Assembly (NCBI GenBank): GCA_028282725.1 | Contig: JANQHF010000073.1 | Location: 40,349 to 104,348 of the forward strand | DNA from: Saprospiraceae bacterium | Lineage (GTDB): Bacteria; Bacteroidota; Bacteroidia; Chitinophagales; Saprospiraceae | Reading direction: 5' to 3' | Length of the DNA: 64,000 nucleotides | Shown: positions 31,113 through 42,227 of the stretch, piece after piece | How the letters are laid out: each line of letters begins with the position of its first letter | How positions within the stretch are numbered: position 1 is the first letter of the stretch | The notes under the pieces: generated by a model | Seen by the model: the letters and a program-made list of their open reading frames with translations, nothing else | The model's database searches: none | Told to the model about the DNA's origin: nothing | Position numbers and translations under genes: made by a program

Positions 31113-32588
31113 TCAAATATCCTCTCCGGAGGTGAGATCGTCAAACATACCGGCAAGGGGATCTGAGAAACTGAATTTCGAATCAAGAATATTTTTTCCA
31201 ATGACCTCAAAAGCAGCCAGTCCGTGCAGAATAAGTTCTTTGTACAAATATTTCATTTCATGATTGTCCGTCCTTCCATTGAGAATCTGGTCCATCCCTT
31301 GTACTTGATCCAGTTTAGTCCGGAAATCTTTTTCGTTGTCATCATTTAACAGGTCCAGATGATTTCCTGAGGCAAACCATGCCCTGGTAATACCGTAGGG
31401 ATCTTTTTCTCCCAATTTTTGACTCTTATCCGGATCGGGGAAGTGATCGAGAAAGAATTCCTTGATCGCTTCATCGACAAGATGCATGGCAACGGCATAG
31501 GGTCCGATTTGTTCTCCCTCATAGACCAACTCAACTTTTCCGGTAATAGCCGGCACCACACCCCAGAAATCGGTAATGCGGACCGAGGTACTTTGATCCT
31601 GGTTTTGTAGCATTCTACGTTCTGCAGCGCTAACGAGATTCTCAAGGGCTGAAATACTCAATCTTGCAGAAACACCGGATTTGTCATCGATATAATCACT
31701 TTCGCGTGCCTGGAAGGAAATCATCTCCAGAATAGTCCTGATCTCGTCACTGACAAGAATGCTGTTTTCTTGTTCGGCGGCTATAGATGATTCCTGATCA
31801 GTAATGGCCTTGGCAATATCAATTTCCTTTGGATAGTGCGTTAGAATCTGGCTTTCAATTCGATCCTTTAGGGGTGTAACAATGCTCCCTCTATTGGTGT
31901 AGTCTTCCGGGTTTGCCGTAAACACAAATTGGATATCAAGGGGAAATCGAAGTTTGAATCCCCTGATTTGAAGATCTCCTTCCTGCAAGATATTAAAAAG
32001 AGATACCTGGATCCTTGCTTGCAGATCCGGCAATTCATTGAGTACAAATATCGATCGATGAGCCCTCGGTACCAATCCGAAATGGATCACTCTTTCATCG
32101 GCATATGACAATTTGAGGGTGGCTGCTTTGATCGGGTCTACGTCACCGATCAAATCTGCAACACTGACGTCGGGTGTTGCCAGTTTTTCAACGAAGCGCT
32201 GACTTCGATGGACCCAGTCAACAGGGGTTTCGTCTTCCATTTTTTCAATAAGATCGATGGCAAATCTGGATAGTGGTTGTAACGGATCATCACTGATTTC
32301 GGATCCCTTTACAACCGGTATATACTCATCCAACAGCTGAGTCATCAACCTGGCGATCCTCGTCTTTGCCTGTCCTCTCAGACCCAACAATAATATGTTG
32401 TGCCTTGATAAAATGGCTCGTTCAATGTCCGGAAGGACCGTATCATCAAAGCCAATGATTCCTTCGAATATGGATTCATTTTTTTTGATTTTAGCGATCA
32501 GGTTTTCACGCAATTCCTGTTTGATACTCCTGGGACGATAATCACTTTTCTTAAGTGCACCCAGAGTGGTAATGTCTGGTTTGGCCAA
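31113..32588 (-). CDS. AAA+ ATPase, Mg-chelatase ChlI/BchI-like
   Basis: 'NILLLGLRGQAKTRIARLMTQLLDEYIPVVKGSEI', 'RAHRSIFVLNELPDLQARIQVSLFNILQEGDLQIRGFKLRFPLDIQFVFTANPEDYTNRG'. Confidence 0.88.
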   Translation of the reverse strand: MAKPDITTLGALKKSDYRPRSIKQELRENLIAKIKKNESIFEGIIGFDDTVLPDIERAILSRHNILLLGLRGQAKTRIARLMTQLLDEYIPVVKGSEISDDPLQPLSRFAIDLIEKMEDETPVDWVHRSQRFVEKLATPDVSVADLIGDVDPIKAATLKLSYADERVIHFGLVPRAHRSIFVLNELPDLQARIQVSLFNILQEGDLQIRGFKLRFPLDIQFVFTANPEDYTNRGSIVTPLKDRIESQILTHYPKEIDIAKAITDQESSIAAEQENSILVSDEIRTILEMISFQARESDYIDDKSGVSARLSISALENLVSAAERRMLQNQDQSTSVRITDFWGVVPAITGKVELVYEGEQIGPYAVAMHLVDEAIKEFFLDHFPDPDKSQKLGEKDPYGITRAWFASGNHLDLLNDDNEKDFRTKLDQVQGMDQILNGRTDNHEMKYLYKELILHGLAAFEVIGKNILDSKFSFSDPLAGMFDDLTSGEDI

Positions 32589-32620
32589 TGGATTTGATTT
32601 TATTTGATAATGAAATTGAT

Positions 32621-33721
32621 CTATTGTTTTCTTTTTCTTTTGTTGTCCTTGTAATCCATAAATATGAATTCGCCTAGTCCACGCAAGCTGCTGTAGAAAG
32701 CCTTCCCATCATTTGCCCTGGTAAACTGGTCGACAAAGTTCACGAGATAGGGATCGGTCGCAATCATGAATGTCGTAATGGGAATGCCTAGTTTTCTGCA
32801 CTTGGTAGCAAGACCCAAAGTTCGATTTAAGATTTTCCGGTCCAGTCCAAAGGCATTCTTGTAATATTTTTTACCTTTTTTCAGACAGGTGGGCTTCCCA
32901 TCGGTAATCATCATGATCTGCTTATTGGGATTTTTTCGTCTGCGTAAAATGTCCATTGCCAATTCCAGTCCTGCAACTGTATTGGTATGGTAGGGACCCA
33001 CTTGCAAGTAGGGGAGGTCCTTTATTTCGATCTTCCAGGCATCATTGCCAAAAACTATGATGTCAAGGGTGTCTTTAGGGTAACGCGTTTTAATCAATTC
33101 GGCAAGTGCCATCGCTACCTTTTTTGCCGGAGTGATCCGGTCTTCTCCATACAAAATCATGGAATGGGAAATATCGAGCATCAGCACCGAGGACGTCTGG
33201 CTTTTGAAGTAGGTCTCATGAACTTCAAGGTCATTCTGAGTCAATCTGAATTCGTCGATACCATGGTTGATCTGTGCATTTCTCAGTGACTCACTTACGG
33301 CAATGTTATCCAGTTTATCTCCGAATTGAAAAGGCCTTACTTCTGAAGTGAATTCGTCTCCATATCCCGTATTTCGCGTGATGTGGTTCCCTCGCTTGGA
33401 CTTTTGCAATTGATCGAAGATATCATCGAGAGCTTTGCGACGAAGTGCAATTTCCATTTTGGTGGTGGGGTTTAACAGTCCTCCTTTGGCCTTGCTTTCC
33501 GATATGTACCCTTTATCGATCAGATCTTGAATAAAATCTGAAATGCCGTAATTCTCATCCGTTAATTCGTACTGCTTATCCAATTCTGTCAGCCAGGACA
33601 AAGCTTCGCTGACATCTCCGGATGTATACACCAATAGTTCCTGAAAGATCTGAAGCAATCGCTCAAAGGGATCATCGGCAAATGCGTCTTTATCAAAGTC
33701 TGTAAATCGCCAACCTATCAT
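32621..33721 (-). CDS. VWA-domain protein, ChlD-like partner of the AAA+ ATPase
   Basis: 'SSVLMLDISHSMILYGEDRITPAKKVAMALAELIKTRYPKDTLDIIVFGNDA' MIDAS-type (DxSxS). Confidence 0.88.
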   Translation of the reverse strand: MIGWRFTDFDKDAFADDPFERLLQIFQELLVYTSGDVSEALSWLTELDKQYELTDENYGISDFIQDLIDKGYISESKAKGGLLNPTTKMEIALRRKALDDIFDQLQKSKRGNHITRNTGYGDEFTSEVRPFQFGDKLDNIAVSESLRNAQINHGIDEFRLTQNDLEVHETYFKSQTSSVLMLDISHSMILYGEDRITPAKKVAMALAELIKTRYPKDTLDIIVFGNDAWKIEIKDLPYLQVGPYHTNTVAGLELAMDILRRRKNPNKQIMMITDGKPTCLKKGKKYYKNAFGLDRKILNRTLGLATKCRKLGIPITTFMIATDPYLVNFVDQFTRANDGKAFYSSLRGLGEFIFMDYKDNKRKRKQ

Positions 33722-33818
33722 CGTAAATAATAACTGTATTCGAGACGGAATGTTTGAACTCCAATTTTTTGTTCAATCAGAAAAATCAGAAAATTCTGAA
33801 AAATAGAAATATTCAGCT

Positions 33819-33826
33819 TATCTTTG
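33819..33826 (+). promoter_or_regulatory. Bacteroidota -7 type box (TAnnTTTG) before the methyltransferase gene
   Basis: TATCTTTG ending 16 bp before ATG 33842. Confidence 0.5.
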
Positions 33827-33841: not shown

Positions 33842-34468
33842 ATGGAAGACTTACAATCCAAACAATATTTTGAGACTGTATCGTCTGAATGGGATACGAT
33901 GGGCAATAGTTTTTTTGGTGATGCTCCACGAAACCGGATCTATAGTGAAATGTCCACAAGACCAGGACAAACTATAGCTGACATTGGAAGTGGCAGTGGC
34001 TATTTGTTGGAGGGACTGGTTGATCAACCTGTACACCTGGTAGCTATTGATCAATCTCCGTCCATGTTAGAGCAAATCCGGGAAAAATTGGGAGATCAGA
34101 TTGAAGTCATCGAGGGCACTTCAGAGAATTTGCCGTTGCAAGACGATAGTGTGGATTATGTTATTGCCAATATGTACCTGCATCATGTCGAGAGACCCGG
34201 AGCAGCGATCAAGGAAATGGTAAGGATTTTGAAACAAGACGGCACCCTTATTTTTACGGACCTGGACAAGCATGATTACGAGCAATTGATCACAGAACAT
34301 CACGACCGTTGGAAGGGCTTTGACAGGGAGGACATTAGGCAATGGATGACAGAGGCTGGACTGAAAGATGTTGTCGTTGATTGTCTGGGATCGGGATGCT
34401 GTACCACCACTTGCTGTGATGGGGATATTGCGATCGACATATTTGTAGCAAAGGGAATGAAGACCTGA
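33842..34468 (+). CDS. Class I SAM-dependent methyltransferase with Cys-rich C-terminus (UbiE/ArsM-like)
   Basis: 'IADIGSGSGYLLEGL', 'DYVIANMYLHHVERPGAAIKEMVRILKQDGTLIFTDLDKHDYEQLITEHHDRWKGFDREDIRQWMTEAGL', 'DCLGSGCCTTTCCDGDIAIDIFVAKG'. Confidence 0.88.
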   Translation: MEDLQSKQYFETVSSEWDTMGNSFFGDAPRNRIYSEMSTRPGQTIADIGSGSGYLLEGLVDQPVHLVAIDQSPSMLEQIREKLGDQIEVIEGTSENLPLQDDSVDYVIANMYLHHVERPGAAIKEMVRILKQDGTLIFTDLDKHDYEQLITEHHDRWKGFDREDIRQWMTEAGLKDVVVDCLGSGCCTTTCCDGDIAIDIFVAKGMKT

Positions 34469-34511
34469 TCATCGTTAATTGAGGGATCATTTATTATAAA
34501 AAAGAGAAAGG

Positions 34512-34787
34512 ATGTCAGAGAAAAATAATAATTGTACGCAAATCGAAGCGATTGTAAGTTTTGACGAAAGAGGTCAATTGGTCATACCCAAGGATCTGAG
34601 GAAAAAGTTCAACTTACAACCCGGTGACAAATTTGCATTGATCAGTTGTATGACAAATTGTGGAGATGGTAATTGTACGTCTGAGGAAACCACTCTTTGC
34701 TGCTTTACCCTTGTCCATACGGATCAGTTAAAAGGGGTTGTAAATCAAGCATTGGGTCCGGTGATGTCAGGGATATTTAACAATTGA
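34512..34787 (+). CDS. AbrB/MazE/SpoVT-type protein, resembles HgcAB-associated family
   Basis: 'IEAIVSFDERGQLVIPKDLRKKFNLQPGDKFALIS' swapped-hairpin motif; 'NCGDGNCTSEETTLCCFTLVHTDQLKGVVNQALGPVMSGIF'. Confidence 0.8.
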   Translation: MSEKNNNCTQIEAIVSFDERGQLVIPKDLRKKFNLQPGDKFALISCMTNCGDGNCTSEETTLCCFTLVHTDQLKGVVNQALGPVMSGIFNN

Positions 34788-34845
34788 CATATGGGATTTT
34801 GTCTATCATATTTAGATCGAGTATTCACTTATTAAATCAATAGTT

Positions 34846-34917
34846 ATGGGATTTCTAACAATTCTATTGTCAGCACTTTGTCCAATACCTGGTTGTTGTG
34901 ACGATGACTGCTGTTAA
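34846..34917 (+). CDS. Cys-rich micro-ORF, 23 aa: MGFLTILLSALCPIPGCCDDDCC
   Basis: ATG-to-TAA ORF 59 bp after the AbrB-like gene on the same strand; below the length cut-off of the supplied track. Confidence 0.45.
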   Translation: MGFLTILLSALCPIPGCCDDDCC

Positions 34918-34925
34918 TAGCAGTA

Positions 34926-34966
34926 TGCATGCATCCCGGTCAATTCGTTGATCGGGAGTGCATGCA
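34926..34966 (+). terminator. Strong stem-loop with UUCG loop, possible RNA 3' end or processing element
   Basis: TGCATGCATCCCGGTCAA-TTCG-TTGATCGGGAGTGCATGCA: near-perfect stem with one bulge and one G-T pair. No T-tract follows, so intrinsic termination is uncertain. Confidence 0.5.
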
Positions 34967-35191: not shown

Positions 35192-36700
35192 TTGTCAAAG
35201 ATCAATTACAACATCTTTCTTCCTCCCATTATCGTCCTTGTCCTTGTACTCGGAGGAACTCTTCATGATGCCGTTGCAATTACCCGGGTCCTTCAATATT
35301 TTAGAGAAGTCATCCTGCTTTATTTTGATTGGTTGTTCAATCTGACCGTATTTTCTTTTGGCATTATTTGTCTCATCATTTATTTTTCACCTTTGGGAAA
35401 ACAAGTCATCGGAGGGCCTGACTCCAAGCCTATTCTTGACAAAAAAAGATGGTTTGCAGTTGTGCTTTGTACTACAGTGGCAACGGGCATCCTATTCTGG
35501 GGCTCTGCCGAACCGCTTTTCCATCTTCACGAACCTCCGTCCTACAATATAACACCATCTTCAAAAGAAGCTGCTGTCACATCGATGTCCGCCTTATTTA
35601 TGAATTGGACCATACCCCCTTATGCATTGTATACATCGGTATCGCTTTTGTTTGCGTGGTCATATTATAATAAGAAACGCCCCTTTCGCGTGTCTTCTGT
35701 CATTTTTGACTACAAACAGAACAAGAGCCGTTGGTTTCATGATGTAGTAGATAGCATTTGTCTGTTGTCTCTTGTTGGCGGGATGGCGGCATCATTGGGC
35801 GCAGGAGTGCTGACTATTTCCGGTGGGCTGGATCGGAGGTTTTCATTTTCCCAGGGACCTGAGCTATGGACATTAATTACAGTAGCTATTGTCCTTGCAT
35901 TCGTTATTTCTGCGGCCAGTGGCATTCAAAGGGGGATCAAGTGGTTGTCCCAGATCAATGTACTTCTCTTCATAGCCTTAATCGTGATATTTACCTATAG
36001 CCTGATGAATGCAGATGCTCTGATTATATCGTTGAATGCAATTCCGGAATTCATTGTTCATTTTGTTCCGAGAAGTCTGGGGATCTCTGATTTTGATAGA
36101 AGTTGGGAACAAGCCTGGATGTCCTTTTATTGGGCCAACTGGATGGCCTGGGCCCCTGTGACTGCCTTGTTTTTGGGAAGACTTGGGGTTGGTTATTCTG
36201 TCAGAGCATTTATTCGAGTGAATTTATTATATACTTCCTTGTTCAGTGCGCTCTGGATGTGCATTTTTGGAGGAATTGCTCTGAGTATTGATATGAAAAG
36301 TAATGGAATCTTGTATGAAATCCTGGTCGACTCAGGGCCTCAGGATGTTCTTTTTGAGTTGATCTCCAGGATTCCTTTTGCCCCGGTCATCTCCATACTG
36401 TTTTTGATCGTCGTCTATGTCTCTTATGTCACTGCGGCTGATTCCAATACCTCTGCTATGAGCGGACTGAGTGCCCGGGATGTTAATCCGGATCATCCTG
36501 AAGCCTCACTTGTCATTAAGATGATATGGGGCTCATTCATTGCTGTCCTGGCATTGATCATGATCATAACAGGTGGAATTGAAGGAATCAAGACCATTTC
36601 AATTCTCGGTGGATTTCCGATTCTCTTTTTATGTTTGGCAGTGCTATTCAGGCTATCACAATGGGTCTATGCATCGATGAAAATCACAAGATCTCCCTGA
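35192..36700 (+). CDS. BCCT-family (betaine/carnitine/choline) transporter, TTG start
   Basis: 'GILFWGSAEPLFHLHEPP', 'SFYWANWMAWAPVTALFLGRLGVGYSVRAFI', 'YVSYVTAADSNTSAMSGLSA'. Confidence 0.92.
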   Translation: MSKINYNIFLPPIIVLVLVLGGTLHDAVAITRVLQYFREVILLYFDWLFNLTVFSFGIICLIIYFSPLGKQVIGGPDSKPILDKKRWFAVVLCTTVATGILFWGSAEPLFHLHEPPSYNITPSSKEAAVTSMSALFMNWTIPPYALYTSVSLLFAWSYYNKKRPFRVSSVIFDYKQNKSRWFHDVVDSICLLSLVGGMAASLGAGVLTISGGLDRRFSFSQGPELWTLITVAIVLAFVISAASGIQRGIKWLSQINVLLFIALIVIFTYSLMNADALIISLNAIPEFIVHFVPRSLGISDFDRSWEQAWMSFYWANWMAWAPVTALFLGRLGVGYSVRAFIRVNLLYTSLFSALWMCIFGGIALSIDMKSNGILYEILVDSGPQDVLFELISRIPFAPVISILFLIVVYVSYVTAADSNTSAMSGLSARDVNPDHPEASLVIKMIWGSFIAVLALIMIITGGIEGIKTISILGGFPILFLCLAVLFRLSQWVYASMKITRSP

Positions 36701-39779: not shown

Positions 39780-42227
39780 TTATTCTGACCTCAGAGATTC
39801 AACGGGATTGGCTCTTGCCGCCCTGATACTCTGAAAGCTCACTGTTAAAAAGGCAATCAGGATCGATATCAGTCCCGCAAAAACAAAGATCCACCATTCG
39901 ATAGACACCCTGTATGCGAAATCCTGCAACCAATTCCTCATTGCATACCAGGCAATCGGGCTCGCTATGATGATGGCCACAATCACCAACTTCAGAAAGT
40001 CTTTAGACAGCAGTTGTACTATACCTAACGATGAAGCACCCAGCACCTTTCTGATTCCAATTTCTTTGACTCGTTGTTCAGCTGTAAAGGCTGCCAGTGC
40101 AAGTAGACCAAGGCAGGCAATGAAGATAGCAAGGATACTGAATGTACTAAAGACCTTGCGTGCGGTCATCTCTCTGTCGTATAGGTCTGCCCATTCCCGA
40201 TCCAAAAAGGCATACCGGAACGGCAAGTCGGGTTGAAATTGCATCCACAAATTTTCTATGCTTGACAGAGTGGTTTGAAATGCATTCGGATTCATACGAA
40301 CTGTAATCAGATTATCAACACCGGGAGTGCCGTTTCTTAAATTACTGACCAGGAACAACGGAGAGATTGTCTGATGTAATGATTGAAAGTGATAATCTCT
40401 TACCACACCGACAATAGTATATACGCTTTGAACATCCGGGATGGGATTCAAGAAATTAGCCGGAGAAATTACTTGAGTGCCGATCGGGTCTGACAAGTTC
40501 ATTTCTCTTACAGCAGCTTCATTTACCACTATAGAAAGGGAGTCAGCGAATTCTTCCGAAAAACTTCGTCCGTCAATAATTTCCATTTTCATACATTCCA
40601 CATATCCATCATCGACGATTAATCCACTCCCTGTGGTCATTTCAGTTTCACTTTGAGGCCGGAATGAAATTCCAAAAAACTGTCCTCCCGGTTGTGTACT
40701 ACACCCACTTACGGCGATTACTCCAGGCAAGTTTTCAATCTCATTTTTCAATGTTTCTTCCTGAGACAAGGTCATTCCTCCTGCTCCCTGCAATGTGATG
40801 AGATGATCCTTATCAAATCCCAATTCCTTGTTTTGGGCAAATACCATTTGATTATAAATCAGGATAGTACTAATTATGAGAAATACAGAAATTCCAAATT
40901 GAAATACAACGAGTGCATTTCTGAGGATGGCCCCTTTTTTAGTCTTGGAAAATTGCCCTCTTAATACCTCGATTGGTTTGAATGATGACAAGGCAATGGC
41001 AGGGTAGGTCCCCGACAACAATCCTGTTAATCCTGTTATGCCCACAAACGTCAATAAGTATTCTACGCTAGTCAAATCTGTTGAAGCGAAATTCTTTCCT
41101 GTTAATTCATTAAAATGAGGCAATGCCACGGAATGAATAAGCAAGGCGAGCACACCGCTGATCAGGGTAACCAGGAGGGCTTCTGCAAAAAATTGAATCG
41201 CTATTTGAGATCTCTCTGATCCAAGCGTCTTTCTGATCCCTACTTCTTTGGCTCTTGTAGCAGACCTGGCGGTAGCCAGATTCATGAAATTAATGCATGC
41301 AATAATTAGAATGAGAATGGCGATTACCAGGAAGAAATATACCCGTTGCCTTGAGCCCGGTGGCTTAATTTCACTTTCCAATTTTGAGTCCAGGTAGATA
41401 TCCTCCAGGTGCTGTAGTGTATAGTTATATCCATTTCCCTGATTTTGATATTCGGCATAATCAACTCCAAAGTTGTTTAAGATCTGGCCGCTGGCATACT
41501 TGACTACGAGATCCGGAAATTTAGATTCTAATATGCCGGGATCTGTTTCAGGATGTAACATGAGATATGTCAGTGCCGAGAAACTGATGAAATTAGGAGC
41601 CTGTATAAAATTCAGACTTTTGGAAGAAATCAATAAGTCAAATTCGAGATGACTATTGTGTGGAATATCCTCTACAACACCACTTACCAGGTAGTCATTG
41701 TTGTTTTGAGGAAGTTCCAATGTTTTGCCGACTGCACTTTCTCCCTTGAAGTATTTATCTGCAAGAGTTTTGGTCAATACTACTGTATTCGGTTTGACAA
41801 GAACTTCAGCCGGATTTCCTTCTAATAATCCTATATCAAAAAAATCGAAGAAATTGCTATCCGCCCACATATACCGTTCCTCTTCATAAATTATCCCGTT
41901 GTGTTTAATTACAATAGGGTTGCCAGCAAAGTAGAAAATCCTTGTTGCGGCTTCTACTTCGGGAAACTCATCATTCATAGCTTCCGCATAGGAATGTGGA
42001 ATGATAGCATAATTTCTGGTTCTGCCCGGGTACTTTCTCTCTAATGCAACTCTGTAAATTTGATCTCCTTTTTCATGCCACTTGTCATAACTCAATTCAT
42101 CCTTTACAAATGTCATGATGATCATAAAACATGCTAAGCCTATTGCCAGTCCGAGTATATTGATCAGGGTATAACCCTTGTGTCGGAGAAGATTTCTAAA
42201 AGTGATTTTAAAATAGTTCTTTATCAT
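39780..42227 (-). CDS. ABC transporter permease (MacB/FtsX-like), paralogue 1 of 5
   Basis: 'MIKNYFKITFRNLLRHKGYTLINILGLAIGLACFMI', 'EQRVKEIGIRKVLGASSLGIVQLLSKDFLKLV', 'ARANPVESLRSE'. Confidence 0.93.
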   Translation of the reverse strand: MIKNYFKITFRNLLRHKGYTLINILGLAIGLACFMIIMTFVKDELSYDKWHEKGDQIYRVALERKYPGRTRNYAIIPHSYAEAMNDEFPEVEAATRIFYFAGNPIVIKHNGIIYEEERYMWADSNFFDFFDIGLLEGNPAEVLVKPNTVVLTKTLADKYFKGESAVGKTLELPQNNNDYLVSGVVEDIPHNSHLEFDLLISSKSLNFIQAPNFISFSALTYLMLHPETDPGILESKFPDLVVKYASGQILNNFGVDYAEYQNQGNGYNYTLQHLEDIYLDSKLESEIKPPGSRQRVYFFLVIAILILIIACINFMNLATARSATRAKEVGIRKTLGSERSQIAIQFFAEALLVTLISGVLALLIHSVALPHFNELTGKNFASTDLTSVEYLLTFVGITGLTGLLSGTYPAIALSSFKPIEVLRGQFSKTKKGAILRNALVVFQFGISVFLIISTILIYNQMVFAQNKELGFDKDHLITLQGAGGMTLSQEETLKNEIENLPGVIAVSGCSTQPGGQFFGISFRPQSETEMTTGSGLIVDDGYVECMKMEIIDGRSFSEEFADSLSIVVNEAAVREMNLSDPIGTQVISPANFLNPIPDVQSVYTIVGVVRDYHFQSLHQTISPLFLVSNLRNGTPGVDNLITVRMNPNAFQTTLSSIENLWMQFQPDLPFRYAFLDREWADLYDREMTARKVFSTFSILAIFIACLGLLALAAFTAEQRVKEIGIRKVLGASSLGIVQLLSKDFLKLVIVAIIIASPIAWYAMRNWLQDFAYRVSIEWWIFVFAGLISILIAFLTVSFQSIRAARANPVESLRSE

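Follow-up and report, generated by a model that had tools for sequence, protein, structure and literature searches.

The AbrB-type regulator HgcC and a cysteine-tailed micropeptide encoded directly downstream of it form a conserved gene pair in the Saprospiraceae, and with moderate confidence we read this pair as an autoregulated soft-metal(loid) operon in which HgcC would repress its own promoter, a thiophilic ion would release it and the micropeptide would be the dedicated output that chelates or traffics the ion. Computational genome comparison establishes the gene content of the locus, its conservation, the linkage of the micropeptide with a cysteine-type regulator and the operator in front of both. 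The locus lies in a stretch of 64,000 nucleotides (the window; G000:C64:40349-104348, with position 1 at 40349) of a 5.06-Mb Saprospiraceae genome, and has the following features:

33777-33799, no strand: proposed binding site of HgcC, an operator made up of three 9-bp repeats in tandem, TCAGAaaaaTCAGAaaatTCTGA (sequence comparison)
33819-33826, + strand: putative Bacteroidota -7 promoter element TATCTTTG, 15 nt 5' of the first ATG (read from the sequence)
33842-34468, + strand: class I SAM-dependent methyltransferase, 208 aa, an optional operon member (Pfam, fold, orthologues)
34512-34787, + strand: HgcC, AbrB/MazE-type regulator, 91 aa, with an N-terminal Cys, Cys46 and vicinal Cys63-Cys64 (NF040962)
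34846-34917, + strand: CC-tail micropeptide gene, 23 aa, MGFLTILLSALCPIPGCCDDDCC (orthologues in 21 genomes)
34907-34924, + strand: small hairpin overlapping the final Cys codons and stop of the micro-ORF (RNA fold)
34926-34966, + strand: strong stem-loop 3' of the micro-ORF, a terminator-like operon end (RNA fold)

The putative -7 element resembles the Bacteroidota -7 consensus TAnnTTTG. A preliminary description of the window had reported three same-strand ORFs with cysteine motifs, which are present as listed, and had treated them as a three-gene cassette; what is conserved is HgcC plus the micropeptide, the methyltransferase adjoining them in only 4/21 loci. Its reading of an HgcC-family regulator, a thiophilic module and a micropeptide that may chelate is supported, whilst the methyltransferase as a defining part, and its likeness to ArsM-type enzymes, are not; the operator upstream of the operon was absent from that account and was found in the present analysis. 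A MoxR-like AAA ATPase and VWA-domain gene pair (31113-33721, - strand) lies divergently upstream of the operon and a BCCT-family betaine/choline transporter (35192-36700; PF02028, 371 bits) lies 3' of it. The VWA gene holds the same place in several relatives and in other genera (e.g. loci L011, L013, L056 and L060), and the locus is therefore old in the Saprospiraceae; the operator may also act on the divergent MoxR/VWA genes.

The AbrB-like protein, which the preliminary description had likened to the HgcAB-associated family, scored 88.3 bits against NCBIfam NF040962 ('HgcAB-associated protein HgcC'; cut-off 70) over positions 1-69 of 70, and also passed the AbrB/MazE DNA-binding domain models TIGR01439 (35.2 bits, cut-off 28.3) and PF04014 (25.4 bits, cut-off 24.7). 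C46, C63 and C64 were invariant across 18 sequences. The structure model of the protein was weak (pLDDT 70.8) and a fold search with it returned weak AbrB-type matches, so that we draw no argument from the geometry of the cysteine site. The open-access literature yielded nothing direct on HgcC or the HgcAB-associated protein, and in the part of it searched neither an operator nor an effector peptide was described for the family.

A scan of genome contigs together with a search of 398 genomes of the family, many of the surveyed genomes being MAGs, found HgcC in 32 genomes from 10 genera, including 6/6 genomes of the genus of the window, in each of which a short CC-ending ORF follows it. The family cysteines were present in 22 of the HgcC-bearing Saprospiraceae genomes, and a micropeptide gene, always directly downstream, accompanied 21/22 of these Cys-type HgcC genes across 9 genera. 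The exception is G922 (58% complete), in which the copies of the methyltransferase, HgcC and micropeptide genes appear degenerate, reflecting either joint decay or poor assembly; it was excluded from intact-locus counts, and 21/21 intact Cys-type loci hence carry the micropeptide. In genus g257, HgcC scores above the NF040962 cut-off yet lacks the vicinal Cys, and the 8 loci examined there have terminator-like sequence in place of a micropeptide. In a tree of 76 columns, in which many deeper forks were unresolved, the proteins split into two sister clades, one of 21 Cys-type and one of 8 Cys-less members. The micropeptide is thus paired specifically with the Cys-type regulator.

Three TCWGA cores, spaced with a 9-bp period, precede the first gene of the operon. 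The repeat, TCWGAWWWWTCWGAWWWWTCWGA, precedes HgcC genes in three phyla, with 60/69 loci positive vs 0/476 control windows drawn from the same loci, when the best site within 300 nt upstream was scored over 15 core positions and 13 or more was taken as positive. By group, the positives were 20/20 Saprospiraceae, 11/11 Chloroflexota, 23/30 archaeal and 6/8 Cys-less loci, the archaeal failures lying mostly 5' of ACR3. Periods of 7, 8, 10, 11 and 12 bp scored as background, the signal being specific to 9 bp. We predict from this comparison an HgcC DNA site common to Bacteria and Archaea. The operator of the window matches at 15/15 core positions and ends 19 nt 5' of the TATCTTTG box, a distance at which it would reach the -33 region, and archaeal operators abut A/T-rich, TATA-like sequence; from these positions we infer a site suited to a repressor. 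Its exact sequence occurs once in the 5.06-Mb genome, and the operon itself is therefore the apparent regulon; across the 21 genomes, no second target with up to 2 mismatches recurred among the matches listed. An exact, A/T-spaced copy was observed at G023:C23:208754-208776, in a genome in which HgcC was not detected.

The HgcC survey reached the phylum of the Saprospiraceae, the archaeal phylum of G522 and the Chloroflexota, with HgcC in 42/247 genomes of the second and 11/201 of the third. The gene directly 3' of HgcC was of the ArsM type at 11/11 Chloroflexota loci, as called by sequence likeness to the archaeal representatives, and of the HgcA, ArsM or ACR3 type at archaeal loci, where representatives scored above curated cut-offs (HgcA, NF040863, 450 bits; ArsM, NF008823, 348 and 353; ACR3, TIGR00832, 454). 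These neighbours support the earlier proposal of a thiophilic metal/metalloid module, since HgcC adjoins arsM, acr3 or hgcA in other phyla. HgcC stands beside arsM or acr3 about as often as beside hgcA (loci L138-L148 and L077-L106), and the name 'HgcAB-associated' understates its link with arsenic; because many family members adjoin arsM or acr3, adjacency to hgcA/hgcB is not a real requirement of HgcC. A scan of the genes adjacent to HgcC in the window showed no hgcA, nor was one seen beside Saprospiraceae HgcC loci, whose neighbours included none recognised as an arsenic or mercury gene. In archaeal mercury methylators, a 'TA gene', prlF/abrB, annotated as antitoxin PrlF/MazE, has been described upstream of hgcA (PMC10349881), and this gene probably belongs to the HgcC family.

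The one-to-one pairing of micropeptide and Cys-type HgcC, with a sister clade that has neither trait, and a regulon limited to the operon (exact site; up to 2 mismatches among the matches listed) would also be expected were the micropeptide a co-regulator, which in its ligand-bound form would bind HgcC or shuttle the ion to or from it and so tune the switch and not detoxify. No such peptide was found, however, near archaeal and Chloroflexota HgcC loci, and we consider a co-regulatory role unlikely.

The Saprospiraceae micro-ORFs start with ATG, encode 15-29 aa and lie 25-111 nt from the upstream HgcC gene. In many loci a conserved U-rich motif, typically TTATTTTTTCACC, is found between the two genes (34788-34845 in the window), and a GTGTCGACGGAGC-like stretch lies 5' of the micro-ORF in two genera. 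RNA folding placed stem-loops 3' of the stop codon in the 21 loci folded and a hairpin over the stop codon in part of them. Several features recall a regulatory leader or arrest peptide: the Cys codons extend as far as the stop, a strong stem-loop comes next, and in several loci a hairpin covers the last codons. In such a peptide, metal or the supply of Cys would be sensed by the Cys codons or by the nascent Cys-rich tail, with control of a terminator hairpin as the outcome; the copper-responsive CruR offers a precedent (PMC9426467). Only some loci have the stop-codon hairpin, though, and the conserved downstream gene that a CruR-like leader needs is absent at micropeptide loci: the gene that follows differs from genus to genus and lies on the opposite strand, convergently, in at least five loci (G004, G005, G867, G849 and G915), leaving the micro-ORF with nothing downstream to control. 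As the micro-ORF moreover appears to end its operon, such a leader role is unlikely.

The encoded peptides, exemplified by the orthologues MFTLLSLLACCFPGCCDIPCC, MNALILLASLMSGLGCCGLGCC, MACLFGLVASLLFGGGCCSGTGCC and MIPIDLICSILGCCSGCC, have a hydrophobic start, often a CCxxxCC motif (the spacing is not universal) and in all cases a CC end; 24% of their residues are Cys and 82% of the first 11 are hydrophobic. The hydrophobic N-terminal half, and the antitoxin annotation of the equivalently placed archaeal gene upstream of hgcA (PMC10349881), would fit a small hydrophobic peptide acting on a transporter or on membranes, or a toxin-like partner of AbrB/MazE, with cysteines serving disulfides or membrane insertion and not metal. 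The paired Cys are nevertheless the most conserved feature of the peptide, and the regulator's neighbours in two other phyla are arsenic or mercury genes and not toxins, which makes this explanation improbable.

An ATG-started ORF of 15-30 codons with a CC end within 230 nt downstream was present at 21/21 loci, vs a mean probability of 0.0016 per locus in dinucleotide shuffles, and at 0/155 control genes. Seven close pairs, not fully independent of one another, differed 36, 27 and 67 times at codon positions 1, 2 and 3, and of their 37 Cys codons 31 were common to both members, 11 of these with a TGT/TGC switch; third-position excess and Cys kept through such switches are the pattern expected of selection on protein. 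A conserved RNA element misread as an ORF, as the U-rich motif 5' of the start and the stem-loop 3' of the stop might suggest, is a very improbable explanation given this excess, the whole-codon length changes, the TGT/TGC switching and an ATG and stop conserved in 9 genera. The preliminary description had named lack of conservation of the micro-ORF as grounds for abandoning its reading, and the survey, now run, returned orthologues in 21 genomes. NCBIfam and Pfam searches gave no profile match to the micropeptide, and a strict GCCxxxCC-stop pattern searched in 297 other Bacteroidota genomes gave no convincing stand-alone micropeptide among 20 loci fetched, where the matches re-found lay within or overlapped longer ORFs. 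Nothing direct on such a Cys micropeptide was found in the open-access literature, and the peptide is apparently undescribed in the sense of being absent from there and from the profile libraries used.

The methyltransferase carries a GSGCCTTTCC motif near its C-terminus, matches Pfam Methyltransf_11 (81.7 bits) and is modelled (pLDDT 83) with the fold of class I methyltransferases; C186-C187 are invariant in four orthologues. The suggestion that it is of the ArsM type fails by NCBIfam, with 47 bits against the NF008823 cut-off of 263 and a true ArsM located elsewhere in the genome (G000:C74, 306.7 bits). Its best NCBIfam match, the DVU_1556 family (NF045667), also fell short, at 75.1 bits (cut-off 155). 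An atypical arsenite methyltransferase is known from Thermus (PMC8649762). As a core of the system the methyltransferase was also discarded: it adjoins the HgcC locus upstream in G000, G004 and G209 and downstream in G816, stands away from HgcC in G001 and G002 (L107, L108; with an NANCCADSC tail and a MarR-like regulator adjacent), and at E ≤ 1e-25 has no match in the remaining genomes searched, which are the majority.

In the operon model that we favour, HgcC, with its AbrB fold and vicinal cysteines, would sit as a repressor on the three 9-bp repeats at its own promoter until released by a thiophilic ion that its cysteines capture. The likeliest such ion is As(III), our best guess because HgcC is linked to arsM and acr3, with Hg(II) or something similar as a possibility; the signal could be another thiophile instead (Cu, Cd, Zn, Sb, Bi or reactive sulfur). 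The genes released would be arsM, acr3 or hgcA in archaea and Chloroflexota and, in the Saprospiraceae, the gene for the micropeptide, whose 15-29 residues comprise a hydrophobic N-terminal half and a tail of vicinal Cys at the C-terminus. We regard this peptide, which is presumably translated, as the likely functional output mainly because it is encoded by the sole non-regulatory gene behind the operator in most Saprospiraceae genomes. Its composition suggests that it is probably a miniature metal(loid) binder, plausibly a chelator, which would hold or pass on the ion through its paired cysteines and is probably membrane-associated; its small size, below that of an ordinary metallothionein and insufficient for a full transmembrane helix, counts against the model. 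In a few genomes, including that of the window, the added small SAM methyltransferase with its C-terminal CysCys would presumably act on the captured ion or on a thiol.

The arsenite pump gene acr3 occurs in 0/21 micropeptide genomes (that of the window included) vs 8/20 HgcC-less relatives, a contrast with a simple hypergeometric probability of ~0.001 by genome and 0.03 by genus that is confounded by phylogeny (9 vs 20 genera). A wider claim would make a membrane-associated vicinal-Cys micropeptide the only product controlled by an AbrB-type repressor that responds to As(III)/Hg(II), and would see in it a new class of metal(loid) defence, replacing efflux where the arsenite pump is absent and using an operator common to Archaea and Bacteria; this is possible but on balance doubtful. 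If the operon model is right, it adds a micropeptide gene family too short for standard annotation and provides HgcC with a predicted regulon and DNA site. It would also suggest that, depending on the lineage, a single switch governs the methylation of arsenic or of mercury, the efflux of arsenite, or a peptide chelator. With the predicted operator, how hgcA is regulated in archaeal mercury methylators becomes open to direct test.

Amongst known systems, the closest is HgcC itself (NF040962), the regulator of the window scoring above the family cut-off; archaeal loci found here share the place before hgcA, whereas the window regulator precedes a micropeptide. The ars operons (ArsR-arsM, ArsR-acr3) likewise have a small Cys-bearing regulator, with a site at the promoter of its own gene, directly 5' of genes for detoxification, and in Chloroflexota and archaea HgcC takes the place of ArsR next to arsM and acr3; they differ in that HgcC has an AbrB fold and ArsR a winged helix, and in that the proposed output in the window is a peptide from a family of 15-29 aa. 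The arsenic metallochaperone ArsD and bacterial metallothioneins have vicinal or dense Cys, like those proposed as the metal(loid) site of the micropeptide, which is several times shorter and hydrophobic at its N-terminus. CruR (PMC9426467), a copper-responsive upstream ORF of over 140 aa, is similarly a peptide with a Cys motif encoded in a metal-regulated operon, but heads that operon, whereas the 23 aa micro-ORF of the window appears to end its own.
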